Positions 31,423-61,309 of a DNA stretch of 64,000 bases are shown here, one piece after another. The DNA lies in NCBI GenBank assembly GCA_964019135.1, contig OZ025258.1, positions 3,739,961 to 3,803,960 of the forward strand. The letters run 5' to 3'. Positions within the stretch are counted from its first letter, which is position 1. Each line of letters starts with the position of its first letter. The translations under genes were made by a program, and so were the position numbers. Below the pieces are notes generated by a model. The model saw nothing but the letters and a program-made list of their open reading frames with translations. It was not told the DNA's origin and did no database searches. This stretch comes from Arenicola marina (taxonomy: Eukaryota; Annelida; Polychaeta; Arenicolidae).

Positions 31423-31556
31423 CTGGCGGCGAAATGACGAACCACTTTAGCCACCAAGAATTTTTTAGTTTTTTTTTTTCGCGTTTATCTCTGAGAAGAA
31501 GTCATGGTATTCGCAAACTGCGATAAAACAGATCATAAAACATTACATCATCAGGT

Positions 31557-40451: not shown

Positions 40452-42194
40452 TAGCAGGGTTACCTTTTGCTCTAGGAGGGCTCACTAGCATTACCTTTTG
40501 CTCTAGCAGGGCTCAGTGATATTACCTTTTGCTCCAGCAGGGCTCAGTGATATTACCTTTTGCTCCAGCAGGGCTCAGTGGCATTACCTTTTGCTCTAGC
40601 AGGGCTCAGTGGTATTACCTTTTGCTCTAGCAGGGCTCAGCGGTATTACCTTTTGCTCCAGCAGGGCTCAGTGGCATTACCTTTTGCTCTAGGAGGACTC
40701 AGTGGTATTACCTTTTGCTCTAGCAGGGCTCAGTGGCATTACCTTTTGCTCTAGGAGGGCTCAGTGGTATTACCTTTTGCTCTAGCAGGGCTCAGTGGCA
40801 TTACCTTTTGCTCTAGCAGGGCTCAGTGGTATTACCTTTTGCTCTAGCAGGGCTCAGTGGTATTACCTTTTGCTCTAGCAGGGCTCAGTGGTATTACCTT
40901 TTGCTCTAGCAGGGCTCAGTGGTATTACCTTTTGCTCTAGCAGGGCTCAGTGGCATTACCTTTTGCTCTAGGAGGGCTCAGTGGTATTACCTTTTGCTCT
41001 AGGAGGGCTCAGTGGCATTACCTTTTGCTCTAGCAGGGCTCAGTGGTATTACCTTTTGCTCTAGCAGGGCTCAGTGGTATTACCTTTTGCTCTAGCAGGG
41101 CTCAGTGGCATTACCTTTTGCTCTAGGAGGGCTCAGTGGTATTACCTTTTGCTCTAGGAGGGCTCAGTGGCATTACCTTTTGCTCCAGCAGGGCTCAGTG
41201 GTATTACCTTTTGCTCTAGCAGGGCTCAGTGGCATTACCTTTTGCTCTAGGAGGGCTCAGTGGCATTACCTTTTGCTCTAGCAGGGCTCAGTGGCATTAC
41301 CTTTTGCTCTAGCAGGGCTCAGTGGCATTACCTTTTGCCCTAGCAGGGCTCAGTGGTATTACCTTTTGCTCTAGGAGGGCTCAGTGGTATTACCTTTTGC
41401 TCTAGCAGGGCTCAGTGGTATTACCTTTTGCTCCAGCAGGGCTCAGTGGTATTACCTTTTGCTCTAGCAGGGCTCAGTGGCATTACCTTTTGCTCTAGGA
41501 GGGCTCAGTGGCATTACCTTTTGCTCTAGCAGGGCTCAGTGGCATTACCTTTTGCTCTAGCAGGGCTCAGTGGCATTACCTTTTGCCCTAGCAGGGCTCA
41601 GTGGCATTACCTTTTGCTCTAGGAGGGCTCAGTGGCATTACCTTTTGCTCTAGCAGGGCTCAGTGGCATTACCTTTTGCCCTAGCAGGGCTCAGTGGTAT
41701 TACCTTTTGCTCTAGGAGGGCTCAGTGGTATTACCTTTTGCTCTAGCAGGGCTCAGTGGTATTACCTTTTGCTCCAGCAGGGCTCAGTGGTATTACCTTT
41801 TGCTCTAGGAGGGCTCAGTGGCATTACCTTTTGCTCTAGGAGGGCTCAGTGGCATTACCTTTTGCTCTAGCAGGGCTCAGTGGCATTACCTTTTGCTCTA
41901 GCAGGGCTCAGTGGCATTACCTTTTGCTCTAGCAGGGCTCAGTGGCATTACCTTTTGCTCTAGGAGGGCTCAGTGGCATTACCTTTTGCTCTAGCAGGGC
42001 TCAGTGGCATTACCTTTTGCTCTAGCAGGGCTCAGTGGTATTACCTTTTGCTCTAGGAGGGCTCAGCGGTATTACCTTTTGCTCTAGCAGGGCTCAGTGG
42101 TATTACCTTTTGCTCTAGCAGGGCTCAGTGGTATTATCTTTTGCTCCAGCAGGGCTCAGCGGTATTACCTTTTGCTCTAGCAGGGCTCAGTGGT
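40452..42194. repeat. 31-bp array built from the donor end of TAOK exon 42740-42922
   Basis: About 55 copies. On the minus strand each unit reads CTGAGCCCTGCTAGAGCAAA then AGGTAATGCCA (with CCTGCT/CCTCCT, CTC/CTG and TGCC/TACC variants). This equals the last 16-18 bases of the exon (GCCCTGCTAGAGCAAAAG, residues A-L-L-E-Q-K) plus its donor GTAATG. Thus every unit contains a complete 5' splice site. The array continues, after an interruption, at 42,645-42,740 where it meets the exon. Confidence 0.95.
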
Positions 42195-42580
42195 ACGGTC
42201 TCTAACAAAGGGGTGTGTAGTGTGAACGGTCTCTAACAAAGGGGTGTGTAGTGTGAACGGTCTCTAACAAAGGAGTGGGTAGTGTGAACGGTCTCTAACA
42301 AAGGGGTGTGTAGTGTGAACGGTCTCTAACAAAGGGGTGGGTAGTGTGAACGGTCTCTAACAAAGGGGTGGGTAGTGTGAACGGTCTCTAACAAAGGGGT
42401 GTGTAGTGTGAACGGTCTCTAACAAAGGGGTGTGTAGTGTGAACGGTCTCTAACAAAGGGGTGGGTAGTGTGAACGGTCTCTAACAAAGGGGTGGGTAGT
42501 GTGAACGGTCTCTAACAGAGCGGTGGGTAGTGTGAACTTAACAGTGCGGTGGGTGGTGTGAATGGTCTCTAACAAAGGGG
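42195..42580. repeat. second 31-bp minisatellite, about 12 copies
   Basis: Unit CGGTCTCTAACAAAGGGGTG then TGTAGTGTGAA, unrelated in sequence to the 31-bp donor array but with the same period. It is inserted between two stretches of the donor array. The last copies are diverged. Confidence 0.93.
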
Positions 42581-42644
42581 TGGAGTGTGATCCTTGATGC
42601 GGGCAGCGATTGCGATACTGACTTTCTTTGTTGTCCTGCTTTAC

Positions 42645-42739
42645 ACCTTTTTCTCTAGGAGGGCTCAGTGGCATTACCTTTTGCTCTAGCAGGGCTCAGT
42701 GGCATTACCTTTTGCTCTAGCAGGGCTCAGTGGCATTAC
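42645..42739. repeat. exon-proximal copies of the 31-bp donor array
   Basis: Three decoy copies of the exon end plus donor directly follow the real donor of exon 42740-42922, with identical AAAAG-GTAATG junctions. The 65 bases before 42,645 (from 42,581) are unique. Confidence 0.93.
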
Positions 42740-42922
42740 CTTTTGCTCTAGCAGGGCTCGCCGCAGGGACACGCGTTCCTCAAGCTGTTTCTTCTCCCGC
42801 ATGTGCTGGGCCTCGGCCTGCATCTTGATCTTGCTCTGGTAGGCCATCAGCAGCTCCAACTCCTGCTCCAGCTTCTGGTGCAGGTCCTTGCACTCCGCCA
42901 TCTGGGTCTCGTCCAGCCGGAA
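42740..42922 (-). CDS. TAOK: TAOK exon: coiled coil ([11 protein letters not shown] to RRALLEQK)
   Basis: Exon of 183 bases, 61 codons, phase 0 at both ends. Acceptor CCCTCCACAG ends at 42,923; donor AAAAG-GTAATG at 42,740/42,739. It reads [20 protein letters not shown], then [20 protein letters not shown] and an end [11 protein letters not shown], closely following the vertebrate TAOK coiled coil. The donor and last 17 bases are copied about 55 times downstream. A SINE-A tail starts about 20 bases upstream of the acceptor. Confidence 0.96.
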
Positions 42923-42943
42923 CTGTGGAGGGGGGAGCGACGG

Positions 42944-43206
42944 GGTTGGTTGGCTGGTTGTATATTCAGGACGCTTTAAACACTTTTGGTCATATCGCGT
43001 CATTGAGAGGAGGGGGAAAGTGGAGCCATGTCCCCTGGGGTAACCCCCTACTCTCTGCGAAGAAGGACATGGGATCTTTATCTTGCGACCACACAGACAT
43101 GGCCACAGCGGGACTCGAACCATCGATCCATGTGCCGTTAGGCTCTCAGGTGGCCAGATCACTCGAGGCGAGCGCTTTAACCCACTGAGCTACCGGGCCG
43201 GCCCCT
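42944..43206 (-). mobile_element. SINE-A copy next to a TAOK splice acceptor
   Basis: Full-length on the minus strand: head GGGGCCGGCCCGGTAGCTCA, B-box-like ATGGTTCGAGTCCC, body AAGATCCCATGTCCTTCTTC, end ATGACCAAAAGTGTTTAAAG and tail of AACC-type repeats. This copy has the better B box (GGTTCGAGTCC). Its tail lies about 20 bases from the acceptor of exon 42740-42922, so it may supply the branch point. Confidence 0.9.
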
Positions 43207-43390
43207 GGGGAGGGTGCAACCCTGGTAACGTAAAGAGGGGACCACATGATTGACAGGAGTGACAGTAAACGTTACGTCATTGAAAGGAAGAAGCAGTCTG
43301 CTTGGTAAGAGTGCCGAGGAAAGGGTTAAATCATGGCCAGACTGGATATGTAAAAAGATATTAGAAACGGATCATAATTGGAGAAGGATT
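43207..43390. other. unique intron sequence
   Basis: No repeat or gene recognised. Confidence 0.5.
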
Positions 43391-43888
43391 TGACGAGATC
43401 AGGTATTGAGTCAGCATTGGACCAGAATCGGTCCAAGATTAGACTAGAAAATGTATTAGATAATGGACCAGAAAGTGATCAGATAATGGACCAGATAATG
43501 GACCAGAAAAGTGATCAGATAATAGACCAGAAAAGTGATCAGATCATGGACCAGATAATGTATTAGATAATGGACCACATAATGGACTATATAATGGATC
43601 ACAAAATCGATCAGATAATGGACCACATAATGGACCACAAAATTGATCAGATAATGGACCACATAATGGACCATATAATGGACCATGATAAATATTGTAA
43701 CAAATATTGAACTGGATATTGCACCACATATCGGACCAGATATCCGACCACATCACGGACCAGATCACGGACTAGATCTCGGACCAGATGACGGACCAGA
43801 TCTCGGACCACATCACGGACCAGATGGCGGACCAGATGACGGACCAGATCTCGGACCACATCACGGACCAGATGACGGACCAGATCTC
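43391..43888. repeat. degenerate ATGGACCAGAT-type minisatellite
   Basis: A 10-20-base pattern around GGACCAGATAATGGACCA drifts to GGACCAGATCTCGGACCACA on the right, so two related families follow each other. Both strands give low-complexity ORFs (VHYLV, GPDHGPD) that I reject. It ends about 24 bases from the donor of exon 43912-44124. Confidence 0.85.
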
Positions 43889-43911
43889 GGGGCGTGTCCC
43901 ACGTGACTCAC

Positions 43912-44124
43912 GCTCTGCTGGTGCATCATCTCGGAGATGGTGTTCTCGTACTGCTGGCCCAACATGCTCATCTTCTGCATCTGCTCCTCCTTCAGCTTCT
44001 TGATGACGGCCTTCTGCTCCGGCTTGGCCGTCGTCTGCAGGATCTGCTCCTTCAGCGCCTTGTACTGGCGCTGCTGGATCTTCACGGCGTCGTGGAACTG
44101 GCGCCGGATCTGGGCCTCCTTTTG
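43912..44124 (-). CDS. TAOK: TAOK exon: coiled coil (QKEAQIRRQF to MMHQQS)
   Basis: Exon of 213 bases, 71 codons, phase 0. Acceptor CGCCCCGCAG ends at 44,125; donor CAGAGC-GTGAGT at 43,912/43,911. It reads QKEAQIRRQFHDAVKIQQRQ, YKALKEQILQTTAKPEQKAV and so on, matching the vertebrate segment that starts K-E-L-Q-I-K-K-Q-F. The exon or exons before it are not visible (gap at 44,201). Confidence 0.96.
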
Positions 44125-44200
44125 CTGCGGGGCGACACGGCACGACCACGTGGTCAACCAGTGAACCGAGGGGGGGGGGGGGAGGGAGGGGGGGGGGGGA

Positions 44201-44400
44201 NNNNNNNNNNNNNNNNNNNNNNNNNNNNNNNNNNNNNNNNNNNNNNNNNNNNNNNNNNNNNNNNNNNNNNNNNNNNNNNNNNNNNNNNNNNNNNNNNNNN
44301 NNNNNNNNNNNNNNNNNNNNNNNNNNNNNNNNNNNNNNNNNNNNNNNNNNNNNNNNNNNNNNNNNNNNNNNNNNNNNNNNNNNNNNNNNNNNNNNNNNNN
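44201..44400. other. assembly gap (200 N), probably hiding TAOK exons
   Basis: It separates the truncated 54-bp array from a C-run. The coding segment between ...SKEEMRK (exon 45673-45801) and QKEAQIRR (exon 43912-44124) is missing, whereas vertebrate TAOK has roughly 100-150 residues there. The real gap is therefore probably larger than 200 bases and flanked by repeats that blocked assembly. Confidence 0.7.
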
Positions 44401-45672
44401 CTCCTCCTTGCTCCTCTGGTACACTGCGCTCCGGTACACCTACCTTCCTCATCTCCTCCTTGCTCCTCTGGTACTGTTTGCGCTCCGGTACACCTACCTT
44501 CCTCATATCCTCCTTGCTCCTCTGGTACTCTTTGCACTCCGGTACACCTACCTTCCTCATCTCCTCCTTGCTCCTCTGGTACACTGCGCTCCGGTACACC
44601 TACCTTCCTCATCTCCTCCTTGCTCCTCTGGTACTGTTTGCGCTCCGGTACACCTACCTTCCTCATCTCCTCCTTGCTCCTCTGGTACTGTTTGCGCTCC
44701 GGTACACCTACCTTCCTCATCTCCTCCTTGCTCCTCTGGTTACTGTTTGCGCTCCGGTACACCTACCTTCCTCATCTCCTCCTTGCTCCTCTGGTACTGT
44801 TTGCGCTCCGGTACACCTACCTTCCTCATCTCCTCCTTGCTGCTCTGGTACTCTTTGCGCTCCGGTACACCTACCTTCCTCATATCCTCCTTGCTCCTCT
44901 GGTACTGTTTGCGCTCCGGTACACCTACCTTCCTCATCTCCTCCTTGCTCCTCTGGTACTGTTTGCACTCCGGTACACCTACCTTCCTCATATCCTCCTT
45001 GCTCCTCTGGTACTGTTTGCGCTCCGGTACACCTACCTTCCTCATCTCCTCCTTGCTCCTCTGGTACACTGCGCTCCGGTACACCTACCTTCCTCATCTC
45101 CTCCTTGCTCCTCTGGTACTCTTTGCGCTCCGGTACACCTACTTTCCTCATCTCCACCTTGCTCCTCTGGTACACTGCGCTCCGGTACACCTACCTTCCT
45201 CATCTCCTCCTTGCTCCTCTGGTACACTGCGCTCCGGTACACCTACCTTCCTCATCTCCTCCTTGCTCCTCTGGTACTCTTTGCGCTCCGGTACACCTAC
45301 CTTCCTCATCTCCTCCTTGCTCCTCTGGTACTGTTTGCGCTCCGGTACACCTACCTTCCTCATCTCCTCCTTGCTCCTCTGGTACTGTTTGCGCTCCGGT
45401 ACACCTACCTTCCTCATCTCCTCCTTGCTCCTCTGGTACACTGCGCTCCGGTACACCTACCTTCCTCATCTCCTCCTTGCTCCTCTGGTACACTGCGCTC
45501 CGGTACACCTACCTTCCTCATCTCCTCCTTGCTCCTCTGGTACTCTTTGCGCTCCGGTACACCTACCTTCCTCATATCCTCCTTGCTCCTCTGGTACACT
45601 GCGCTCCGGTACACCTACCTTCCTCATCTCCTCCTTGCTCCTCTGGTACTGTTTGCGCTCCGGTACACCTAC
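44401..45672. repeat. 54/52-bp array built from the donor end of TAOK exon 45673-45801
   Basis: About 24 copies. On the minus strand each has TACCAGAGGAGCAAGGAGGA then GATGAGGAAGGTAGGTGTAC and CGGAGCGC. The first part equals the last 32 or so coding bases of the exon (Y-Q-R-S-K-E-E-M-R-K) and the GTAGGTG is its donor. Two unit types occur: 54 bp (...CGCAAACAGTAC or CGCAAAGAGTAC) and 52 bp (...CGCAGTGTAC). Some copies have GATATGAGG for GAGATGAGG. Long ORFs on both strands are by-products. The left end is cut by the N run. Confidence 0.96.
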
Positions 45673-45801
45673 CTTCCTCATCTCCTCCTTGCTCCTCTGG
45701 TACTCTTTGCGCTGCTGACTCTGGAACTGCTTGAGCTCTGTCTCCTGCTGCTGTAACATCTGTCGCGCCTTCTTCTTCTCCGAATTCTCGTTGTGCTTTT
45801 T
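45673..45801 (-). CDS. TAOK: TAOK exon: coiled coil (KKHNENSEKKK to SKEEMRK)
   Basis: Exon of 129 bases, 43 codons, phase 0 (or 132 bases if the upstream AG of GAGCAG is used). It reads KKHNENSEKKKARQMLQQQE, TELKQFQSQQRKEYQRSKEE, MRK; the QQRKEYQRSKEE part aligns with the vertebrate S-Q-K-R-E-Y-K-L-R-K-E-Q. Donor GAGGAAG-GTAGGTG at 45,673/45,672. The donor edge is the source of the array at 44.4-45.67 kb. The true donor might be any of the identical copies; the first gives the expected frame. Confidence 0.93.
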
Positions 45802-45811
45802 CTGCTCACAT

Positions 45812-46069
45812 ACATCAAACAGAAACCGATAAAGAGATAAAGATAGATAAATAAAGATAGATCGATAAAGAGCCAAACAATACGTCATAGGATGCAGGAT
45901 ATCTTACACAACGACAGTGAGCGTGATAATCCGGTGGTTGAACTGACAGCATTACAACGACTGCTTACAGAATGAAGTGTTTCTTGACGTGAAATAGACA
46001 CTTTGCAGACAAAGGCTTGGAGAAACATTGAACCTTGATTCGTTGCTCGGAGAAGGTAACCTCCACTTG
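45812..46069. other. unique intron sequence
   Basis: AT-rich sequence with a short GATA-like microsatellite (45,828-45,865). No gene seen. Confidence 0.5.
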
Positions 46070-46829
46070 GCGGGGAGGGGAGAGGGGAGAGGGGAGAGGC
46101 GTGTAGGGGAGGGGAGAGGTGAGGGGCGAGTGTGGGGGAGGGGAGAGGGGAGGGGTGTGCGTGTGGGGGAGGGGAGAGGGGAGGGGCGTGTGTGTGGGGG
46201 GGAGGGGAGAGGGGAGGGTGTGTGTGTGGGGGGGAGGGGCGAGGGCAGGGGTGTGCGTGTGGGGGAGGGCAGAGGGAAGGGGCGAGTGTGTGGGGGAGGG
46301 GGGAGGGGAGAGGGAAGGGTGTGTGTGTGGGGGAGGGGAGGGGAGAGGGGGAGGGGCGTGTGGGGGGGGGAGGGAAGAGGGGGACGGCCTGTGTGTGGGG
46401 GAGGGGACAGGGGGAGGGGCGTGTGGGGGGGGGGGGGACAGGGGAGGGGCGTGTGTGTGGGGGAGAGGAGAGGGGATGGGCGTGTGTGTGGGGGAGGGGC
46501 GTGTGTGTGGGGGAGGGGAGAGGGGATGGGCGTGTGTGTGGGGGAGAGGAGAGGGGGAGGGGCGTGTGTGGGGGAGGGGAAAGGGGGGAGGGGCGTGTGT
46601 GTGGGGGAGGGGACAGGGGGAGGGGCGTGTGGGGGGGGGACAGGGGAGGGGCGTGTGTGTGGGGGAGAGGAGAGGGGATGGGCGTGTGTGTGGGGGAGAG
46701 GAGAGGGGGAGGGGCGTGTGTGGGGGAGGGGAGAGGAGGAGGGGCGTGTGTGTGGGGGAGGGGAGAGGGGGAGGGGCGTGTGGGGGGGGGGGGGGAGGGG
46801 ACAGGGGAGGGGCGTGTGTGTGGGGGAGG
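46070..46829. repeat. purine-rich minisatellite (GGGGAGGGGCGTGTGTGTG)
   Basis: Degenerate units of about 30-38 bases: GGGGAGAGGGGAGGGGCGTG then TGTGTGGG. It continues at 47,025-47,075 beyond an inserted SINE-B. Strongly polypurine on the plus strand, so G-quadruplex or triplex structure is plausible. ORFs of 240-313 codons on both strands are low-complexity and rejected. Confidence 0.93.
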
Positions 46830-47024
46830 GGAATGGAATGGAATGTTGGTGTTTTAGGCCACTTTTGTGCACATACAGGCTAAAGTGGGCCAAGGAACCT
46901 CCCGAGACGATGAAGGATGAAGGAATGAAACATGCCCCAGATTAGGTGCCCGAGCCCGGATTCGAACCCAGGACCTATTGATCTGCGGTCTAGTGCGCTA
47001 ACCCACTACACCAGGGAGGCCCCC
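46830..47024 (-). mobile_element. SINE-B, complete, inserted in the purine minisatellite
   Basis: On the minus strand: head GGGGGCCTCCCTGGTGTAGT then GGGTTAGCGCACTAGACCGC, B box GGTTCGAATCC, body CACCTAATCTGGGGC and CGGGAGGTTCCTTGGCCCAC, end GTGCACAAAAGTGGCCTAAA and an (ATTCC)n tail. It is flanked on both sides by GTGTGGGGGAGGGGA, which may be a target duplication or simply the surrounding repeat. The near-intact head shows the tRNA origin. It lies in sense orientation within a TAOK intron. Confidence 0.9.
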
Positions 47025-47112
47025 GTGTGGGGGAGGGGAGAGGGGAGGGACGTGTGTGGGGGGTGAGGGGAGGTCCTGGTGATAGGGTAAGGACGGTGGG
47101 CGGGACGCTGAC

Positions 47113-47247
47113 CTTGGCTTCGACGTCCTTGATATATTTTTGCTGCAGCTTCTCCAGCTCGCGTTGGAAGTTGAACATGAGGGTCTCGTACTCCTTGTCC
47201 AGCTTCGTCTTGTGGTCCTCCATCTCCTGGCTGAACTTGTTTTCAGC
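47113..47247 (-). CDS. TAOK: TAOK exon: coiled coil (AENKFSQEME to IKDVEAK)
   Basis: Exon of 135 bases, 45 codons, phase 0. Acceptor GGTGCTGCAG ends at 47,248; donor GCCAAG-GTCAGC at 47,113/47,112. It reads AENKFSQEMEDHKTKLDKEY, ETLMFNFQRELEKLQQKYIK, DVEAK, matching the vertebrate E-N-K-L-K-A-E-M-D-E-H-R segment. Confidence 0.96.
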
Positions 47248-47381
47248 CTGCAGCACCATGGAAACCATTGTGACGCAAACCCATTGTGTCATCAACAATT
47301 GTAATATATACTAATATTGATGAACGTACTTTATAACATGGAGATGTGTTGAGTCGTAGTCCTGTATTAGTAGGCACCCAC

Positions 47382-47549
47382 CTGCTCGAGCTGCTTCTGG
47401 TGCTGCCGCCGGAGCCGCTTGTACCCTGTCATCTGGTCCCGCATCACGTTTTCCTGGATGTGCTCCGTCCGCTGCTGGTTCACGATGGAGGTCGTCCGGA
47501 TCGTCGCGAAGTTGTTGGCGCCGGGTTCGCTGAAGCTGCTGGCCGAGGA
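47382..47549 (-). CDS. TAOK: TAOK exon: [10 protein letters not shown] ... RQHQKQLEQ
   Basis: Exon of 168 bases, 56 codons, phase 0. Acceptor CCCACCCACAG ends at 47,550; donor GAGCAG-GTGGGT at 47,382/47,381. It starts [20 protein letters not shown] and ends [21 protein letters not shown] and [15 protein letters not shown] are hallmark TAOK sequences at the start of the coiled coil. Confidence 0.97.
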
Positions 47550-48282
47550 CTGTGGGTGGGGGAGAGGGGGGGGGGTAGAGGGCAGACACAGGTCAGTGGA
47601 CAAACACACGTAAGGCTGACACGTCACAACGAGGCAGAGATATACCTCATACAGTGAAGACGTCATCGGCGATAACGCGCGTCACAGGACATAACGTCAT
47701 TAACTTTCAACGAGAATGACCGGATATGACGTCATGCGCGGTACTGGGCATGAGCGGATATGACGCCGCGCGCGATACTGCTCCATGCGCGGATATGACG
47801 TCACAGGACAGCCCAGGACATGCGTTGTGATTGGGTGTTTTTGTAATCAGTTCTCTACTAGTGTCGTATAAATCTATAACTAGACGGCTTAAATGATACT
47901 AACGAAGGTATTACGACACACACCATCAGTTAGGGACAAGGGACCGACCAAGAAAGGTCAAGGCCATGGACTACAGACTACATCAATAGGTGCTTACAAA
48001 GCTTACATTAACTTTGAGCAGGCGTTCATTAAGCTTACACTATCAACAGCTAAATAACATATGTAAATTACGACAAATTGGGATTGGGCTCTGACTGAAT
48101 TCCATCACCAAGTGAAAAGTTGACACCCAAAACAATACCCGATAACCGCAGTCACAGATACATTGTCCGTGACAAGACTAGGCATGACCCCACCAGCAAG
48201 CCACCAGGGTGTCCTGTATACACAGAACCCCGGGTGGGTAGACAAAGCACACTCCACTGGCAAAACCAGGCCACGCCCAATA
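47550..48282. other. unique intron sequence
   Basis: Three short repeats of GCGGATATGACGTCA type (47,715-47,810) and G-runs near 47,565. No exon recognised. Confidence 0.5.
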
Positions 48283-48500
48283 GAAGTGGTTGGTTGGTTA
48301 TTCAGGACGCTTTAACCACTTTTGGTCATATCGCGTCAATGGAAGAAGGAAGGGAGAGTGGAGCCATTTCCCCGGGGGTAACCCCCTACTCTTTGCACAG
48401 AAGGACATGGGACCTTTATCCTGGGACCACACATACATGGCCACAGCGGGGCTCGAACCATCGATCCACGTGCAGTTTAGCTCTGAGCTTCCGGGTCGGC
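48283..48500 (-). mobile_element. SINE-A copy, 5'-truncated or diverged head
   Basis: On the minus strand the body AAGGTCCCATGTCCTTCTGT and the end ATGACCAAAAGTGGTTAAAG with an (AACC)n tail are intact. A B-box-like GGTTCGAGCC is present, but the A-box half is reduced to GGCGCCGACCCGGAAGCTCA. Same orientation as the gene. Confidence 0.85.
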
Positions 48501-49030
48501 GCCTGTGTTAAGTCTCAACGGTCAACACACGGATACGAAACGGGAAGACTTGACCACACAGACGTTAAAACAATGACTAATGACATATGAACATATTCTA
48601 GTGAATGATATGATATATGAAATACAAAGCAAGCTAAAACAAAGTCAAAACATACCTTCCCCTAAATCCAACATGCATATTGTATTAACGAACGTAAACA
48701 TTCTGTAAGACAAACTCGGTACACCTAGACATCGAGAAACTTGCTGTGACACCTGCCACGACATGTGCCACGACACCTGCCGTGACACCGGCGGTGACAC
48801 CTGCCGCGACACATGCCGTAGCACCTGCCGTCAAAAATGCCGCGACACCTACCGTCCTGACACCTACAGCAGAACCTTAACCCATGTTGCCACTAATACC
48901 ACACCACGAAACTCAAATCCACTTCAAATTCCTAATCTTACACCTCGCGAAACAAAAAAATCCTATACGACAAAACCCAAAAATCCATAGACGTTCCGGC
49001 CATATCCACAACTCCCGCTACCATCTCTAC
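48501..49030. other. intron sequence with a degenerate minisatellite
   Basis: At 48,745-48,870 a loose 12-base pattern (CACGACACCTGCCGTGACAC) repeats about ten times with decay. The rest is unique. Confidence 0.6.
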
Positions 49031-49255
49031 CTTCCTGAGCCGACCGGGGCAGCAGATGCGGTCGTCGCTACCCTGCGAGAGCTTCCTGTGGGGTCGGGGG
49101 GCGCCTGGCCCGTCCCAGACACTGGACCCTGAGAGGCTGGAGCCACACACACTGGACCCTGTGAGGGTGGAGCCCCACACCCCGGTGGCCCACACCCCGG
49201 AGACCCACACGTTGGACAGCGACCCGGCGTGGCGCCCCCGCACCAGGCCCACTCC
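49031..49255 (-). CDS. TAOK: TAOK exon: Ser/Gly-rich linker (lineage-specific)
   Basis: Exon of 225 bases, 75 codons, phase 0. Acceptor TGTGCATTCAG ends at 49,256; donor CAGGAAG-GTAGAG at 49,031/49,030. The in-phase frame reads GVGLVRGRHAGSLSNVWVSG, then several G-S-S-V and S-L-S-G-S-S repeats and RKLSQGSDDRICCPGRLRK. I do not find a direct match in vertebrate TAOK, but both splice sites, the phase and the position fit the variable linker between the kinase and coiled-coil domains. Other frames are also open, so this exon is less certain. Confidence 0.6.
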
Positions 49256-51221
49256 CTGAATGCACAAGCACCCGCCTTATATATATCTATAACACGCTTC
49301 AGGCCGAGCACGTGGCCGGGCGATAATACCCTTAATTCCTCAATTATCGGTTTTTGACAATGTTCCCTCCGCGGACCAGCCAGTAAGCAATCACACAGGC
49401 AAGAGAAGGACAGCATACTAATTTATACCCGATTCTGATTGAGAAAAGATTGAACAACTTAGGCATTCAACAGTCAATAGGTAAGGCGTATAACAAACAG
49501 TCTACAGGTATATAAATGCAAATAGGTTTTGAACCATTTCAATATCATGCCAGAGAAAAAGAAAATCTACAGGCATGATGGTGAGGAAAGCCTTACATAG
49601 AACTCACATCATAATTCACATGCCACCCATTGGAAGGTCAATTAAAGGTCACTAGGTACTCCACACCAGAGGAATAATGCAGACATGATCTGGACTCGGC
49701 GTTAGGTGTTAGGCGTTCATGCATAGATATTTCTGTTCACACTATTTCATTTTCCCCTTTCACCCAAGCTCCACAACACTGCGATACATATACCAGATTA
49801 TCTCGCAGTGCAGCAGACAAAGTATTGTAAAATCCGTTTCCCCAATCACCACGTTCTATATTAATGCGGTAAGTGTCGTTAGATTACTCTGGTGGTGATA
49901 TTTGTGAAGATACAAAGGGGGAGACCACAGACGCCTAACCCACAATGCAATGGGACAGGTTTCACATCACGGCCTACGTTCTGGCCATAGTGACACATGC
50001 ATCATGGGGGATGTAACTTAAAGTGGCCACCACATCATACACACAGAAAAGGAACAAGGCATACAGGGGGGTGGTCAGGGGACTGTCTACGGTCTGTCTA
50101 CGGGGTGACACAGAGGATGCAAGGCCTCCTAATGAGGGTGGGGGAGAGGGTTGAAAGCAGGGTGGGTGGGGAGGGGAGGGTAGTAGGCAAGGGACAGACA
50201 TGTGGGGGGGGGGGGGGGGGTGGACGGGTTAGCAGCAGTGCCATTACCGTATGCCAGGGACAGTGGGTCACATCAGATTTGTTCCGGAGCCGTTTCTGCG
50301 CATGCGTAGTGGACCTACAGGTGGGGTACACACGGAGATGGAGGGGGGGACAGACGGAGGGCGGCGATCACTAAGAGAGGCTAGCGATACAACCACTCAA
50401 TAGGGTGCACCCACACAAGGACCGCCAGAAGGGCTGGGGTGGGTAAGGGAGGGGTGATGGGGGAAGAGGGGGTAACAGATCCAACGCCGTACTTACTAGA
50501 AGTCTAGAACTGTGTTGTTGTGGATGCTAGGAATACAAGATGGCGGAAAGCAACGTATAAGAGACGCCAACCTGACTTCCGCTACTTCCTGTCAATCGTA
50601 TTTGTGTCATTGAATGGTATATAACTTGTACACGTAGGCTACCCTTAAGCTCTGACCAGGCCAGCAGTATGTAACAAGGCAGTGATATACGGGTTCTTAA
50701 AGCGACAGCAGTCGTACGTCAACCAGACGCAGAGTCAAAGATTATAGATTATATAATAATAATTTATCACTAATTCCAAATCCAACATTAAATTGATCCA
50801 TACAGGAAATGCAGTCGCGAATTCCGGTTAACTATTGGTCACGTGGTTTAGGAGATCATTGCACGTGGTAAGGCGTTCAGTACTTCCCGGACCTCCTAAT
50901 TGCAGGAGCCTTAGATATATGTGTGGAGCATTTGTATCATGCTGCTCACTGTGAAGGTGAGCTTATTGCCCTGCTATATGTGAGCCTTACAATGTTTCCA
51001 AGCACAAGCCTTACATGTAACATATCGCGGCGAGGGTACCGCCGTCTATGATATCAATGCTAGCCGAGAGTAATACGTGAGCTATGCTGAATCAATGGGT
51101 TGACCTTAACATCGAAAAACGACCATAGTCTGATGGATCAGGTCTCGCGTGAGTTCAACGCGACTTGACGAGATGGTGAGAAAAATATAGGGGGGTGACC
51201 ACGTGGTCCGGTCAGACTTAC
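49256..51221. other. intron sequence, no recognised feature
   Basis: AT-rich to 50.0 kb, then G-rich tracts (50,130-50,220 and 50,420-50,470). No exon-like segment with TAOK similarity. Short ORFs only. Confidence 0.5.
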
Positions 51222-51389
51222 CCGTCGTCCCCCGCGCGAGAAGGTGGTGACCTCGTCGTGCGTGTCGTTGAAGGACTGGAGGGCGGGGGGTCCCGGGATG
51301 CTGGTCTGGCTGCTGGTGCTCACCTCGCTGCTGCTCCGCACGCTGTGCTGGCTCGTCACGCTGTTGGACTTACTGCTCGCGTTATCCTC
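51222..51389 (-). CDS. TAOK: TAOK exon: Ser/Thr-rich linker, downstream copy of a duplicated exon
   Basis: Exon of 168 bases, 56 codons, phase 0. Acceptor TGGCATGACAG ends at 51,390; donor CGACGG-GTAAGT at 51,222/51,221. It reads EDNASSKSNSVTSQHSVRSS, SEVSTSSQTSIPGPPALQSF, NDTHDEVTTFSRGGRR. The first 22 codons are duplicated at 52,262-52,327 with mostly silent changes. An internal GTGAGC after SSSE could act as an alternative donor. The linker is rich in Ser/Thr, as in vertebrate TAOK. Confidence 0.85.
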
Positions 51390-52012: not shown

Positions 52013-52084
52013 TTATAATCGGATATACAATTCTTGCAGCCGAAGCAAGCATGGATCTAGAGTCAAGGGGGCTATGTCTAATTC

Positions 52085-52215
52085 CGCGCCGCCCCCAGGC
52101 CCAGGCCTTAGGCCCCTGCCCCACGCCCCAGCCTCACGCTCCAGGCCCCAGCCCCACACCCAATGCCCCAGGCCCCAGCCCCAAGCCCCAGCCCTAAGCC
52201 CCACACCTTCACAAT
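52085..52215. repeat. C-rich minisatellite (CCCCAGGCC-type, about 12 bp)
   Basis: Irregular units such as CCCAGCCCCACG and CCAGGCCCCAGC. It lies about 45 bases downstream (in gene sense) of the duplicated exon copy. Frames through it are low-complexity. Confidence 0.75.
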
Positions 52216-52261
52216 GGCGGGGTTTCATACAAAGCTCTTCCCGCGTATCGTGAATACTAAC

Positions 52262-52327
52262 TTTACTGCCACTGCTTAAGCTGTGTTGGCTTGTCACGCT
52301 GTTGGACTTGCTACTCGCATTATCCTC
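52262..52327 (-). CDS. TAOK: TAOK duplicated exon, upstream copy (candidate alternative exon)
   Basis: Acceptor ends at 52,328 after a strong pyrimidine tract (two TTCCTTTAACCC units, CCCTTTAG). The frame reads EDNASSKSNSVTSQHSLSSG then SK, against SVRSSSE in the other copy. Differences in the first 16 codons are silent (AAT/AAC, AGT/AGC, ACA/ACG, CAA/CAG), which implies selection on the protein. A possible donor GTTAGT follows codon 22, aligned with GTGAGC in the other copy. If used it would add 22 residues in phase. It could instead be an old, unused duplicate; the weak donor leaves this open. Confidence 0.55.
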
Positions 52328-52329
52328 CT

Positions 52330-53738
52330 AAAGGGTTAAAGGAAAGGGTTAAAGGAAACAGCCAATCAGCAGGTTATCTCATCCTAAGTATGCATCACGC
52401 TGGATAAGGCTGAAGGTAGCAGCCAATCACAACCGCGGATCAGGCACGCGGGAACAGCCAATCACAATCGCTGGCTGTCGTGTTTCCATGGAGATTCCGC
52501 TTGTGACGTCACGTGAAGTAACGGCTAGACCATATCAGCCTTGGTCAACTCCCCCAATGTTCTTAAACGCATCAGTTACATTGTCAACCTTAAGTACGTC
52601 AAATCAACAGACCGTAACGTATCTTAACAACGTAGTTTCACTAAAATCAATCAGCAGGGTACATTGGTTTGGAACATAATCGTCCATGCTTCCCCGAAAT
52701 GTGATCCATACGACGAAAGAGCAAGAAAGCAGGAACTAAAAATCGTGCTTTCCATGCCAACTGCATACTGGGGGAGATACACGTTCATCAAACGCAATTA
52801 TTCGGGAAAACAAATAAAAAATTCGATCCCTGCTTTCTCAAGCTTTCCAACAATTAACAGCGTGCGTTGTATGGAGTTTTTAATTAAAACTGTCCAAGGT
52901 GTCTAACGCGATTCCTGCGTAAATACATTAAATAATGGATTTTAATTAACTTGCAGAAGGCGCGACCAGGCGCTACGGGTATTTACAAGAGTTCGCGCGG
53001 TTGTGGTTCGTGGGACACTGTGAAAGTGTCGGTTGTACTACAGGGAGGTGCGGCTAATGTCAAGGGGTACATTAGGAAAATGGAAGGTCACTAGAAACAA
53101 TATGGTTAACATAATACGGAAAGTTCAGTTCATTGCCGAAAACTGTTAGTGACGCATGCATGTAGAGAGAAAGGTTTTCTAGGAAACAAATTGAGATATA
53201 GTCTGGAATGGCTTGTTACGCGTTGGGGTCTTCTCACGCCAATTACCTTGTGGCAGTTTGAAGAGATATTGCTCCTGTAATGTTCTACTGGTTAGCCACA
53301 ACTATTTAACGGTTATTTATTAGTGTTTCCGAAACCAAAAATATACCAAATCGGAAATAACAACATTTAGTTGAAACCACAATGAAAGAAGCGGTAATAT
53401 ACAACCGATGCAAGAAAGGAAATGGAGAACAAAGGGGGATTTGCAATAGAATATTTACTACATCAAGCTACTTACTATAGTTTCTCAGTTTTTAAGATAA
53501 ATCTGATTGGAAACACTATAAAATACGCATTTATTGCATATATATTTCTGAAAGAACTGTAAAATCCGGTACTTTAAGTGCAACAAATAATATATTATTT
53601 TAAGTGAAAACAATTATTTCTGTTCCACTACCTTTCGTTTTAGGAGTATTAAGACCGAAGGCCATGGCTGGTGGCCCCATCTCATAGTGTCACACAAAAA
53701 CAGGCCCACATTGTCATTGTAATCAATGTTACGCCAGC
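52330..53738. other. intron sequence, no recognised feature
   Basis: AT-rich unique sequence with short ORFs only. CAGCCAATCA motifs occur three times at 52,350-52,465. I see no TAOK-like exon here. Confidence 0.5.
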
Positions 53739-53830
53739 AGTGGCGCCACCGCGCGGCGTTATAAGCCACTACACCTGCAGTGGCGCCGCCGCGCAGCGTT
53801 ACACACCACTATGCCTGCAGTGGCGCCCCC
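53739..53830. repeat. 39-bp repeat, 2.5 copies
   Basis: GCAGTGGCGCC starts at 53,739, 53,778 and 53,817, each followed by CGCGCRGCGTTA and CACTAYRCCT. It sits about 30 bases from the donor of exon 53859-54095. Confidence 0.85.
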
Positions 53831-53858
53831 GTGCGAGCGGCCAGGCAGTAGTACGTAC

Positions 53859-54095
53859 GATGGAGTCCTCAGTGTCGCCCGAGGAGGGTCCGTTGGGACT
53901 GACGCCGTCCACGGCGCTGCCCCCCTGCCCCCCGCCACCCCCCGCGCTGCTGCTCCGGGGCTCAGAGTCGCAGCCCATCAGGATCTTCTTCATCCGGCGG
54001 TACTGGAGGTTGTCCAGCTCCCGCACGGCGTCCTTCGTCCTCTGGATCAGGTCCGTCAGCACGTGGGGCGGCCGGTTGTGGGTGATGAAGGGGTG
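53859..54095 (-). CDS. TAOK: TAOK exon: end of kinase domain and [19 protein letters not shown]
   Basis: Exon of 237 bases, 79 codons, phase 0. Acceptor TGTTACAG ends at 54,096; donor GACTCCATC-GTACGT at 53,859/53,858. It reads [40 protein letters not shown], then a Gly/Ser linker. [19 protein letters not shown] is diagnostic of TAO kinases. The GTACGTAC donor repeats GTAC and would give the same phase only from the first position. Confidence 0.96.
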
Positions 54096-54262
54096 CTGTA
54101 ACAGGGCGTAACAGAGTGTAACAAGGCGTAACAGTGTAACAGGGCGTAGCAGAGTGTAACAGGGCGTAGCAGGGCATACCATAGTGCAATATGCTGTAAG
54201 ATAATGTAATAGTGTAACGGAGCGTAACGCAGGGCAAGTGTAACAGGCCGTAACAGTTAGGC
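54096..54262. repeat. acceptor-derived short repeats (TGTTACAG family)
   Basis: On the minus strand about twelve 8-20-base units of the form CGCCCTGTTACA[GC] precede the exon acceptor TGTTACAG, so many AG sites line up in the pyrimidine-tract region. At 54,264-54,287 a fragment of the exon start (CCCTTCATCACCCACA) is copied at the far end of the array, showing that the exon edge took part in the duplication. Confidence 0.8.
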
Positions 54263-54287
54263 ATGTGGGTGATGAAGGGGTGTCGTA

Positions 54288-54419
54288 ACAAGTCAAAACA
54301 GTGTAACCTAGCTCTACAAAACCCGAATTACCTTATAATAATTAACTGCATGTTAACGTTTGGACAGGTCATTCCTCCCATTAGCTGGAGGGTCGGTCAC
54401 TCCTGGAGTAGCAGGCCAC
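54288..54419. other. unique intron sequence
   Basis: Short unique stretch between two arrays; nothing recognised. Confidence 0.4.
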
Positions 54420-54864
54420 CCCCACCCTACCTGTTAACACTCAAAGGCAGTGCCCCCCCCCCCCTACCTGTAAGCAGTCGGTGGCAGTGCCCCCCCTCCC
54501 ACCTGTAAGCACTCGGTGGCGGTGCCCCCCCCCCTCCCTACCTGTAAGCGCTAGGTGGCGGCCGTGGGGCGCTCGGCGATGGTTTTGCTGAGGGTCGGTC
54601 ACCCCCTCCCCCACCGGTAAGCACTCGGTGGCGGTGCACCCCCCCTCCCTACCTGTAAGCGCTAGGTGGCGGTGCCCCCCCCCCTACCTGTAAGCACTAG
54701 GGTTGCGGTGCCCCCCCCCCCTACCTGTAAGCACGGGGTTGCAGTGCCCCCCCCCCTACCTGTAAGCACTGGGTGGCGGTGCCCCCCCCCTACCTGTAAG
54801 CACGGGGTTGCAGTGCCCCCCCCCCTACCTGTAAGCACTGGGTGGCGGTGCCCCCCCTCCCTAC
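54420..54864. repeat. 35-bp array built from the donor end of TAOK exon 54865-55040
   Basis: Eleven decoy copies. On the minus strand each reads CCACCCAGTGCTTACAG-GTAGGG followed by a G-run and GGCACCGC. This copies the exon end (ACCGAGTGCTTACAG, residues T-E-C-L-Q) and donor GTAGGG. Near 54,570-54,600 one unit also carries an older longer piece of the exon (CTCAGCAAAACCATCGCCGA region) with silent and point changes. Confidence 0.94.
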
Positions 54865-55040
54865 CTGTAAGCACTCGGTGGACGTGGGGCGCTCGGCGAT
54901 GGTCTTGCTGAGGCAGGCGTTGATGAAGTCTCTGAAGGCGTCGGACCACTCTCCGGCAGACAGCGTGGGCGAGTCGTTCTGGGCGATGTGGTATAAGGCA
55001 CTCATGGCGTTCATGTTGAACAGCGGCGGCTTCCGCTCCG
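54865..55040 (-). CDS. TAOK: TAOK exon: kinase C-lobe ([21 protein letters not shown])
   Basis: Exon of 176 bases; enters in phase 1 and leaves in phase 0 (59 codons with the preceding G). Acceptor GTGTTTGTAG ends at 55,041; donor CTTACAG-GTAGGG at 54,865/54,864. It reads [59 protein letters not shown]. Both junctions of this exon have been expanded into tandem arrays: the acceptor side (84 bp) and the donor side (35 bp). Confidence 0.97.
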
Positions 55041-55570
55041 CTACAAACACACCATTGTGACGTCATAATACACTCAGTAAGGCACTAATGGCGTTCATGT
55101 TGAACAGCGGCGGCTTCCGCTCCGCTACAAACACACCATTGTGACGTCATAATACACTCAGTAAGGCACTCATGGCGTTCATGTTGAACAGCGGCGGCTT
55201 CCGCTCCGCTACAAACACACCATTGTGACGTCATAATACACTCAGTAAGGCACTAATGGCGTTCATGTTGAACAGCGGCGGCTTCCGCTCCGCTACAAAC
55301 ACACCATTGTGACGTCATAATACACTCAGTAAGGCACTCATGGCGTTCATGTTGAACAGCGGCGGCTTCCGCTCCGCTACAAACACACCATTGTGACGTC
55401 ATAATACACTCAGTAAGGCACTCATGGCGTTCATGTTGAACAGCGGCGGCTTCCGCTCCGCTACAAACACACCATTGTGACGTCATAATACACTCAGTAA
55501 GGCACTAATGGCGTTCATGTTGAACAGCGGCGGCTTCCGCTCCGCTACAAACACACCATTGTGATGTCAT
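55041..55570. repeat. 84-bp array containing the acceptor and first 46 bases of a TAOK exon
   Basis: Six decoy copies beyond the real exon edge (units at 55,102, 55,186, 55,270, 55,354, 55,438 and 55,522 for the GCGGCGGCTTCC block). On the minus strand each has GTGTTTGTAG, then CGGAGCGGAAGCCGCCGCTG and TTCAACATGAACGCC, then a spacer with TGACGTCA. The unit of 84 bases is a multiple of three. Two alternating variants (CTCATGG and CTAATGG) differ at one base. Confidence 0.96.
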
Positions 55571-55615
55571 AATACTCGCAATATGGTACTAGAAATGGCC
55601 AGAAACACTTGCAAA

Positions 55616-57938
<2,323 letters not shown>

Positions 57939-58088
57939 CTAATTTGACAGTTCCATTTTCTGTGAGTAAAACATTTCCGGCTTTGACATCTCGGTGTATT
58001 CGATTAAAACTGTGCAGGTATTCCAGGCCGATCAGAGCGTCTTTACTGATGGCCCCGATCTCGTCTTCTCGGAGAGGTTGTTTGTGAA
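57939..58088 (-). CDS. TAOK: TAOK exon: catalytic loop HRDVKAGN
   Basis: Exon of 150 bases, phase 1 at both ends. Acceptor AATGTTGCAG ends at 58,089; donor AAATTAG-GTAAGA at 57,939/57,938. With the preceding G it reads [53 protein letters not shown] with the downstream N is the catalytic loop. Sixteen exon bases and the acceptor are repeated once upstream (58,246-58,397). Confidence 0.98.
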
Positions 58089-58397
58089 CTGCAACATTGG
58101 GAACAGATTAGTCAGTACGGTTCACTGCAGCGCTATTCACACACTTCCGCTAACAACATCATTATTAGGTCAAGACTATTCTTCGAATGTATGCATTTCT
58201 ATTTGAACCAATAAATTTTTTCAAAAAAAGAAAATTGACACACTGAGAGAGATTGTTTGTGAGCTGCAACATTGGGGACAGACGGAGCAGCAAGTACAGT
58301 TCACTGCAGTGCTATTCACACACTTACAATAATAATCTGTTTATTATGTCAAGATTATTCTTCGAATGTATGCATTTTTATTTGAACCAATAAGTGC
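58073..58397. repeat. 150-bp direct duplication spanning an exon acceptor, 2 copies
   Basis: 58,073-58,223 and 58,246-58,397 are about 85-90% alike by eye. The shared part includes the first 16 coding bases, the acceptor and pyrimidine tract of exon 57939-58088, then TGTATGCATTTYTATTTGAA. In the outer copy the acceptor reads AATGTTGCAG-CTCACAAAC, still a plausible splice site. Confidence 0.85.
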
Positions 58398-59298
58398 TTA
58401 CACACTGCCTAGCATTTAGTAAACTGAAAATGAAATTGTAATGTCAGGAGTGCGGTTAGTGTTGACAGGGATATTTGTCCTTTGCGGCATCACGAGTCGC
58501 ATGATTACAGCCACGGTGGAGCCAACACAAGGTCAGTGACGGGGCGAATCAAGTAAAGCTCGTCATATGGATAATATGCCATGCGATTTTACATCAAGTC
58601 ACATTCCTCAACTATTTGATAATGAAGATTAAATACATCAGTAATATGAGGATGGTATTGCAAGGATATGCGCTGGATAGTGTAAAATGTGGAATGTGAC
58701 AAGCTGATACCCAATCGGTCAAAAAAATCTATGTTCGCTGATATTTTTCGTATTGTAAATAAAATGTTTTTTAAAAGTTCCCCATTTGCGACGCTCAAAG
58801 TGAAACCATCGTGGGTTATGAGACATATACTCAGATATTTCCTACTAGAGTACACATCGCTTAATAATATACAACAGATCCTTCTCCAAATAACTAATTG
58901 CTGATTGTTTTGGTTCAGCACAGTGATGTCTACGTGCCGCCTTAAGCAGGCCGTGAGACGACCAGGAAATACGAAACAGTTCCCGGAGGCAAGGACAGAC
59001 TTGGCTTTTTAAAAGCCAGCTTTGTCACATGTGATGACGTCACGCCTATGCACACAACTGTATTGGTATCCACAGGTTTATACAAACAAAGCGATTACCA
59101 ATGTTTCCGGGGAGGGGGAGGGGGGGGGGGCATTACATAATATTATATATAAATGCGCCGCCTAAATGACACCTTTTGTCAGAAATCGACAATTTCTCTC
59201 AATGTGAGATTAAAGTATTTTCAAAATTGCAGCTGTTGACTCTATGCTTCAGTTGATATCGAAAGCGTTTAAATAATTAACCTCAATAGGCCTGTAAG
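58398..59298. other. intron sequence
   Basis: Unique sequence; a G-run lies near 59,115. ORFs of 71 and 110 codons on opposite strands overlap and have no motif. Confidence 0.5.
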
Positions 59299-60695
59299 CT
59301 TAGGGCTACAGCACTGAGGTGTCACATAGGGACAGTCACCGGCCTAAGGTCTCTAGCATACAGTGATATTACTGGCAGTCACTCCGTATCACTTAGGGCT
59401 ACAGCACTGAGGTGTCACATAGGGACAATCACCGGCCTAAGGTCTCTAGCATACAGTGATATTACTGGCAGTCACTCCGTATCGCTTAGGGCTACAGCAC
59501 TGAGGTGTCACATAGGGACAGTCACCGGGCTAAGGTCTCTAGCATACAGTGATATTACTGGCAGTCACTCCGTATCGCTTAGGGCTACAGCACTGAGGTG
59601 TCACATAGGGACAGTCACCGGCCTAAGGTCTCTAGCATACAGTGATATTACTGGCAGTCACTCCGTATCGCTTAGGGCTACAGCACTGAGGTGTCACATA
59701 GGGACAATCACCGGCCTAAGGTCTCTAGCATACAGTGATATTACTGGCAGTCACTCCGTATCGCTTAGGGCTACAGCACTGAGGTGTCACATAGGGACAG
59801 TCACCGGCCTAAGGTCTCTAGCATACAGTGATATTACTGGCAGTCACTCCGTATCACTTAGGGCTACAGCACTGAGGTGTCACATAGGGACAATCACCGG
59901 CCTAAGGTCTCTAGCATACAGTGATATTACTGGCAGTCACTCCGTATCGCTTAGGGCTACAGCACTGAGGTGTCACATAGGGACAGTCACCGGGCTAAGG
60001 TCTCTAGCATACAGTGATATTACTGGCAGTCACTCCGTATCGCTTAGGGCTACAGCACTGAGGTGTCACATAGGGACAATCACCGGCCTAAGGTCTCTAG
60101 CATACAGTGATATTACTGGCAGTCACTCCGTATCGCTTAGGGCTACAGCACTGAGGTGTCACATAGGGACAGTCACCGGCCTAAGGTCTCTAGCATACAG
60201 TGATATTACTGGCAGTCACTCCGTATCGCTTAGGGCTACAGCACTGAGGTGTCACATAGGGACAGTCACCGGCCTAAGGTCTCTAGCATACAGTGATACT
60301 ACTGGCAGTCACTCCGTATCGGTGAGGGCTACAGCACTGAGGTGTCACATAGGGACAGTCACCGGCCTAAGGTCTCTAGCATACAGTGATATTACTGGCA
60401 GTCACACCGTATCGCTTAGGGCTACAGCACTGAGGTGTCACATAGGGACAGTCACCGGCCTAAGGTCTCTAGCATACAGTGATATTACTGGCAGTCACTC
60501 CGTATCGCTTAGGGCTACAGCACTGAGGTGTCACATAGGGACAGTCACCGGCCTTAGGTCTCCAGCATACAGTGATACTACTGGCAGTCACTCCGTATCG
60601 CTGAGGGCTACAGCACTGAGGTGTCACATAGGGACATTCACCGGGCTAGGGTCTCTAGCATACAGTGATATTACTGGCAGCCACTCTGTATCGCT
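59299..60695. repeat. 93-bp satellite, 15 copies, abutting a TAOK donor site
   Basis: Unit CTTAGGGCTACAGCACTGAG, GTGTCACATAGGGACAGTCA, CCGGCCTAAGGTCTCTAGCA, then TACAGTGATATTACTGGCAG and TCACTCCGTATCG. Variants (GACAATCACC, CCGGGCTAAGG) recur in a partly regular order. On the minus strand the unit's GCGATACGGAGTG is the same as donor +4 onward of exon 60699-60744 (GTGA-GCGATACAGAGTG), so the repeat grew from the splice-site edge. Confidence 0.95.
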
Positions 60696-60698
60696 CAC

Positions 60699-60744
60699 CT
60701 TCGATGATATCAGATGCACTACCTAGACAATATTCCATGACCAG
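60699..60744 (-). CDS. TAOK: TAOK exon: hinge region LVMEYCLGSASDIIE
   Basis: Exon of 46 bases, phase 0 in and 1 out. Acceptor GTGGTTTCAG ends at 60,745; donor ATCGAAG-GTGAGC at 60,699/60,698. It encodes LVMEYCLGSASDIIE and the first base of Val. L-V-M-E-Y-C-L-G-S-A-S-D is nearly invariant among TAO kinases. Confidence 0.97.
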
Positions 60745-61207
60745 CTGAAACCACAAAGACAAGCAAATCAGATCTGAAGTTTTCCAAATAGCAGTCGGTT
60801 TAAAAGAGATATTTATTTATACACCACCAACTAATAGTTATTAATGTCACAGACGCTACTGTGATGATAAACCATAATATAAAAAGTCCAATTAACGTTT
60901 TAAATTAATAATAATTAGTCTAAACATATTATATTTACGCAATTGGAAGCAGCCATTGCTTTTACAAAATACAAATTTCTTTTGCTTAAATAACTATTAA
61001 TTATAATTACCATTAGGATTAGTATGTATATATATACACATATGACATATATATTTATGTCATTGTTGGGCGTCCACGAAAGAATGCCGGGAATGTATAT
61101 CACACCTAATGCTGATAAGGGATTACAAAGGGCAGTGAGCGCATTCCTTCCTGTACGAGATAAGCCTAGTGTCCGAGGTGGCTGGCGTGGTGAGAGAGGA
61201 CACTTAC
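60745..61207. other. intron sequence
   Basis: AT-rich unique intron; nothing recognised. Confidence 0.6.
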
Positions 61208-61309
61208 CCATGCTGTGTGATCTCGTAAGTAGCAGCCTTTGTACTCAATGCAGTGGCGATGCTTTACTTGGCGCAAAAACTTCACTTCCTTGATAATATC
61301 TTGCCATTT
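61208..61309 (-). CDS. TAOK: TAOK exon: kinase N-lobe helix C ([12 protein letters not shown])
   Basis: Exon of 102 bases, 34 codons, phase 0. Acceptor TTCGTTGTAG ends at 61,310; donor GCATGG-GTAAGT at 61,208/61,207. It reads [34 protein letters not shown]. The Glu of E-V-K-F-L is the helix-C glutamate. The preceding exon or exons (glycine-rich loop, catalytic Lys) are not found up to 64,000. Confidence 0.97.

Follow-up and report, generated by a model that had tools for sequence, protein, structure and literature searches.

The window analyzed here, a stretch of 64,000 nucleotides (positions 3,739,961 to 3,803,960 of contig OZ025258.1), carries on its minus strand a TAO-kinase gene, TAOK, whose introns contain tandem arrays built from the gene's own splice junctions. 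In five multi-copy arrays the repeated unit is an exon edge joined to its own splice site (the donors of exons D, E, J and M and the acceptor of exon E), and the acceptors of exons C and F lie in two-copy duplications. Both types of boundary are therefore affected. Together these arrays and duplications hold 133 intact splice sites, 7 of them real and 126 extra. The explanation that we consider likely is that they are boundary-spanning minisatellites of the type called mirages in amphioxus, arising in a genome with a very high rate of tandem duplication.

TAOK spans 61,309 to 31,109 and thus extends past the limits first given for this locus (40452..61309). Thirteen exons (A to J and L to N) translate cleanly and join in frame when the exon-proximal splice sites are used. 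The protein kinase domain was matched in exons C and D, and the closest solved relatives of exon C, the only exon searched in this way, are TAO2 and TAO3. The other exons were assigned by eye, by comparison with human TAOK. No exons upstream of exon A were recognized in this reading of the gene. The exons, each supported by its translation, are as follows.

61208..61309, minus strand: exon A (kinase domain).
60699..60744, minus strand: exon B.
57939..58088, minus strand: exon C, also supported by the kinase domain match and by solved relatives.
57338..57490, minus strand: exon D, also supported by the kinase domain match.
54865..55040, minus strand: exon E, lying between 7 acceptors and 11 donors.
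53859..54095, minus strand: exon F.
51222..51389, minus strand: exon G.
47382..47549, minus strand: exon H.
47113..47247, minus strand: exon I.
45673..45801, minus strand: exon J.
43912..44124, minus strand: exon L.
42740..42922, minus strand: exon M.
31109..31422, minus strand: exon N, the last exon (C terminus).
44201..44400, no strand: assembly gap of 200 N in the sequence, at the end of the exon J array.

Coding sequence between exons J and L is presumably hidden in this gap; by comparison with human TAOK, the lost part would be about 150 residues. The arrays and duplications that carry splice junctions were located as follows.

58072..58393, minus strand: two-copy duplication with the exon C acceptor, sites at 58,088 and 58,263.
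55615..57390, minus strand: 56/59-bp array with 30 copies of the exon D donor; a 59-bp unit has about 46 exonic and 13 intronic bases.
54994..55575, minus strand: 84-bp array with 7 copies of the exon E acceptor; the unit has 47 exonic and 37 intronic bases.
54455..54881, minus strand: 35-bp array with 11 copies of the exon E donor.
54076..54282, minus strand: duplicated start of exon F (two copies at a spacing of 187 bp), with AG before the real one only.
44401..45713, minus strand: 52/54-bp array that holds the exon J donor 24 times and is truncated by the assembly gap.
40460..42759, minus strand: 31-bp array with 59 copies of the exon M donor.

The original prediction had named seven amplified junctions, and its coordinates proved exact. 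All seven carry copies: the donors of D (57,338; 30 copies), E (54,865; 11), J (45,673; 24, of which 23 read AAG before GT) and M (42,740; 59, of which 58 are intact), and the acceptors of E (55,040; 7 of 7 intact), C (58,088; 175 bp spacing, 2 of 2 intact) and F (54,095; 187 bp spacing, 1 of 2 intact). The last two, however, are no more than two-copy duplications, and the upstream F copy lacks its AG; in the array units the exon end is joined to GT or AG with its flank. Since the J array runs into the gap, its copy number is a lower bound (at least 24). The M array is broken at about 42,195-42,644, where unique sequence and a distinct 31-bp array intervene. Well over 100 additional sites had been claimed, which agrees with the 126 counted here. 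Junction-spanning units measure 31, 35, 52/54, 56/59, 84, 175 and 187 bp, and these different units and periods bear out the claim that the arrays arose independently. Of the periods listed at first, 31, 35, 52/54, 56/59, 84 and 93 bp were recovered and one of 150 bp was not.

Other arrays occupy the same introns.

59298..60695, minus strand: 93-bp array with 15 copies, beginning 3 bp past the exon B donor, with no junction in the unit as far as read.
53730..53835, minus strand: 40-bp array with 2.7 copies, beginning 24 bp past the exon F donor, donor not inside.
43458..43885, minus strand: 12-bp array, beginning 27 bp past the exon L donor, donor not inside.
31991..40406, minus strand: 74-bp array with 114 copies in the last intron, junction-free.
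55578..55614, minus strand: 37-bp remainder of the D-E intron, in which 15 of 16 bases match another part of exon D.

The first of these had been predicted at 60,699 as part of the junction series; its start 3 bp past the donor was confirmed, and its unit as read holds no junction. Tandem arrays make up 18,050 of the 28,027 intron bases of TAOK (64%), the J-L intron being counted with its gap. Arrays account for 98% of the D-E intron (2,297 bp), which consists of 30 donor copies, about 40 bases and then 7 acceptor copies, and for 94% of the last intron (11.3 kb). A shared ancestral mini-intron of the D and E arrays, suggested by their common TGAGTGTAT, was considered and dropped, as exon E gives a similar partial match. 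A second copy of exon G lies upstream of it (52257-52327 against 51319-51389, 79% identity over 71 bases); its first 16 encoded residues are those of exon G, and it is possibly an alternative exon.

The reading frame was followed from each copy of each junction. Among the D donors the frame stays open for 1 of 30, the first, and any other brings in an in-frame stop. The E acceptors behave in the same way (open for 1 of 7, the last), and the upstream C acceptor copy also leads to an in-frame stop. Two of the 11 E donors leave the frame open, the second copy (+36 nt) keeping it. For the J donors, 23 of the 24 copies were followed, with exon L standing in for the true next exon, which is missing; the second copy (+54 nt) keeps the frame, and two further copies are open but out of frame. 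Only the first of 58 M donors is open; from the others the stop lies 17 or 20 codons beyond the exon. Nearly always, then, to judge by these frames, only the exon-proximal copy would keep the protein readable.

The copies were also compared with one another. Splice-site columns are conserved no better than the rest of the unit: the 9-base windows that vary as little as the splice site, or less, number 38/51, 52/76, 8/27, 27/46 and 18/23 in the five arrays, in an alignment that omitted 3 of the 30 D copies, which are one base shorter. Distinct variants in the exonic parts comprise 8 synonymous and 21 non-synonymous changes and 2 stops, where 6.2 synonymous changes were expected (P = 0.50; 3 of 29 D copies dropped for indels). 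When 7 J variants are set aside as possible misalignments of a 2-base deletion, 8 of 24 are synonymous against 5.4 expected (P = 0.22), and the exonic parts of the copies thus display no significant coding constraint. Extra copies that match the exon over the whole exonic part compared number 12/29, 3/6, 1/10, 3/23 and 32/58. The E acceptor copies (n = 7) are identical over the last 20 intron bases, and the E donor copies (n = 11) are nearly so. In 4 of the 5 arrays the exonic part of the unit is less variable than the intronic part. The copies thus look like neutral, young intron sequence, and many of them still match the exon exactly. The suggestion that such arrays are tolerated because any copy can splice is not upheld, given that distal copies nearly always bring stops and that the splice columns are not specially conserved.

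The frequency with which arrays overlap junctions was compared with chance, using arrays of at least 200 bp and merging the proximal 115-bp block of the M array with its distal block; seven smaller arrays counted toward intron coverage only. Six of 11 arrays overlap a junction. The expected number was 0.96 when seeds were placed on collapsed introns (P = 0.00014), 1.50 when only array-bearing introns were used (P = 0.0015) and 0.98 when rigid blocks were moved inside their own introns (P = 0.00004). With the D-E intron excluded, 4 of 9 overlap against 1.04 expected (P = 0.014). An overlap above chance, as had been predicted, therefore holds within TAOK. These P values are optimistic, because an earlier reader had picked the gene for standing out.

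The surrounding genome was sampled in 19 stretches of 10 kb (L001 to L019) at preset places of the same assembly, among whose probed contigs at least 18 are large (33-77 Mb). Tandem repeat makes up 86,762 of the 190,000 sampled bases (46%), with 34 arrays of at least 150 bp, so the mere presence of arrays does not set TAOK apart. Three stretches (L004, L005 and L009) consist of tandem repeat over their whole length.

One sampled stretch, L010 on a 43-Mb contig, fell by chance on a chloride-channel (CLC) gene that has the same junction-array pattern. Pfam Voltage_CLC was matched in three exons (E = 1.7e-6, 2.8e-19 and 1.5e-5), and the neighboring stretches L048 and L049 were added after L010 had been sampled.

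L010:6335-8611: CLC donor array.
L010:5668-5932: decayed array.
L010:4036-4386: acceptor duplication.

The end of the first visible exon lies in a 71-bp array whose 32 donors all have GT; the frame is open for 1 of 32, the exon-proximal one only. The exonic 59-mers are identical in 21 of 32 copies including the real one (20 of 31 extra copies). Because many extra copies equal the exon over its exonic part, the arrays of both genes are young or homogenized. Farther down the same intron lies a decayed 33-bp array, presumably older, with a similar exon end and GTGAGT. Two more exons have acceptors that were duplicated once (175 bp; about 148 bp with indels), and a repeat with a period of 9 to 26 bp begins about 0-5 bp past another donor. 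In all, 13 CLC junctions were read by eye: one has a multi-copy array, two have duplications, one has a neighboring array and nine have nothing. No junction array was seen at the exons read in L006 (C2), L008 (rhodanese), L011 and L019; in L015 an array begins about 20 bp past a donor of a BTB gene. A 33-bp array of 37 copies (L008:304-1525) spans the apparent stop codon of a frame without a Pfam match. It fits a rule by which arrays are permitted at coding edges, because a tandem copy there would leave the protein unchanged.

The sequence of events that would explain these arrays as mirage-type minisatellites is simple. Short segments (31-84 bp, or 175-187 bp in the two-copy cases) that happen to cross an exon edge would be duplicated in tandem. 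Selection would remove duplications inside exons and spare those that reach over a splice site or a stop. Such a duplication would be silent, in that the exon-proximal splice site would stay in place and be the one used in the animal, with the further copies becoming intron. Slippage or unequal exchange would then expand and homogenize the array. The excess at junctions may thus reflect selection sparing edge duplications, possibly together with a bias of initiation near donors, which is a live possibility. Three points weigh against this account. Competition between splice sites often favors the intron-proximal of two equal donors, in which case the arrays would be harmful. In the J array the exonic part of the unit is more variable than the intronic part. 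Finally, uniform seeding expects 1 to 1.5 junction arrays where 6 are seen, and because it expects fewer, some extra bias is needed.

That bias lies at the center of an alternative that we regard as possible, though doubtful, in which splice donors are the birthplaces of minisatellites and a process tied to transcription or splicing (an R-loop, bound U1 or a break linked to nascent RNA) starts the duplications. The original suggestion that the junction itself promotes duplication agrees with the excess in number, although a generally high duplication rate, with selection sparing units that extend to an exon edge, could account for part of that excess. Of the 11 large arrays, 6 have a 5' edge between -60 and +30 relative to the host donor, where 1.06 would be expected (P = 0.00009), and arrays B, L and F begin 3-27 bp past donors that they do not contain. 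The CLC gene has one donor-spanning array and another that begins just past a donor. The intronic share of the unit is also short, about 4-19 bases depending on the choice of edge, in all five donor arrays (D, E, J, M and CLC), a regularity noticed after the fact. However, the numbers are small and come from two genes, one of them picked by an earlier reader, and acceptors are hit too. Donors read in L006, L008 and L019 have no array, nor do 5 of 7 CLC donors. A broader proposition, that across this annelid genome donors seed minisatellites through duplication linked to transcription or splicing, with many introns opening on donor arrays and a spliceosome that ignores all but the proximal copy, seems to us slightly more doubtful still.

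Very little credence can be given to the idea that selection keeps the arrays because redundant sites aid splicing or yield alternative isoforms. The 133 intact sites and the two frame-open second copies (E, +36 nt, and J, +54 nt) would suit it, but the splice columns are no better conserved than the remaining unit, distal copies nearly always add stops or frame shifts, and the exonic parts show no significant coding constraint. It is similarly improbable that tandem duplication of exon segments gave rise to the introns and that the arrays are relics of that birth. The D-E intron comes closest to such a case, being almost entirely arrays with a remainder that matches exon D at 15 of 16 positions, a score reached in 0 of 5000 shuffles; the other array-bearing introns, in contrast, retain hundreds of non-array bases. 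Coincidence within an array-rich genome is an equally poor candidate. Repeats do fill 64% of the intron bases of TAOK and 46% of the sampled stretches, but under the three placement models the excess at junctions has P values between 0.00004 and 0.0015 (0.014 with the D-E intron excluded) and the pattern recurs in the CLC gene. An assembly artefact is the least probable of all: a gap of N does end one array, but the arrays vary internally and are unlike one another in sequence and period, and an unrelated locus on a 43-Mb contig has such arrays too.

Elsewhere in the window, a plus-strand open reading frame (ORF) at 6315-8042 encodes a CARD domain (E = 1.9e-7) and then, still in open frame, about eleven repeats of 75 bp, each a 25-residue unit. 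Minus-strand LINE-like ORFs occupy 19885-23714, with a Pfam endonuclease domain in 22203-23714 and a 200-N gap at 22,001-22,200. On the plus strand at 30130-30295, where no gene was recognized, a 55-bp array of three copies has a unit with an acceptor-like CACACAG. Dispersed repeats of the window recur in the sampled stretches at 85-93% identity (11 matches, 9 of them in L048); one of them lies at 31544-31802, 42947-43192 and 48287-48487 and three times in L048. An Rfam scan of the window at the gathering threshold returned 0 matches.

The lineage of the host was approached through a mitochondrial contig of the same assembly (C762, 15,942 bp). Pfam matches were obtained in ten frames (nad4, nad1, nad3, a nad2-type antiporter domain, cox1, cox2, cox3, cytochrome b, atp6 and nad5). 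Two further genes, nad4L and nad6, were recognized by visual inspection, and a segment of the large rRNA that lies between nad4 and nad1 was identified with Rfam. Neither scan matched the small rRNA or atp8. All lie on one strand in the order nad5, nad4L, nad4, rRNA, nad1, nad3, nad2, cox1, cox2, cox3, nad6, cob, atp6, consistent with the common annelid gene order. In earthworms nad5-nad4L-nad4-rrnS-rrnL follow one another and all genes are on one strand (PMC11926611). Because the contig fits annelid mitochondrial gene order, the host is probably an annelid and not amphioxus.

These arrays bear on how splice sites are chosen. Exon E offers 77 exon choices with almost equal local signals, of which only two would be productive by reading frame, and TAOK is thus a natural test of proximity and exon-definition rules. 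TAOK also suggests that a genome of which about half is tandem repeat can keep its genes readable by allowing arrays to expand only away from exon edges.

Intron gain by tandem genomic duplication, reportedly the subject of a model by Rogers, resembles the events in TAOK in that exon sequence with splice signals is tandemly duplicated. It differs in that the TAOK introns appear enlarged, with the exon-proximal site and the reading frame unchanged. Earthworm metallothionein is an annelid gene with a minisatellite-filled intron and, as in TAOK, extra exon copies; its exon-4 duplications are absent from the transcript, and no splice-junction-spanning units are described in the parts of the paper seen (PMC12783039). 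Among the matches listed in literature searches, there was no report of boundary-spanning minisatellites in an annelid.

The closest parallel is the amphioxus mirages, to which the original prediction had pointed and which are indeed a published class. They are minisatellites across exon/intron boundaries in Adh3, the globins BflGb6 and BflGb9, TnC and PGBD5; RT-PCR points to normal splicing and somatic length changes are reported (PMC3087553, PMC3902484). As in TAOK, their units span the 5' or 3' boundary, vary in length (10-160 bp), often have intact AG/GT and are homogenized within a cluster. Copy numbers given there are 3 and 6 for BflGb6 and 2-7 for PGBD5 (PMC3087553, PMC3902484), whereas the single gene TAOK carries five multi-copy arrays and two duplications, the copies reaching 59; one of its exons is affected on both sides, and one of its introns is 98% arrays. 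RNA and length variation were examined in amphioxus, while TAOK is known here from the sequence of one assembly. The probable annelid host, in place of a cephalochordate, bears on lineage and not on mechanism. What seems new here is that host, the density of the arrays, the intron made up almost wholly of them and an exon with 7 acceptors and 11 donors. By their anatomy the TAOK arrays are of the amphioxus mirage kind and, should the host indeed be an annelid, they occur in another phylum, which suggests that boundary-spanning minisatellites are not peculiar to amphioxus.

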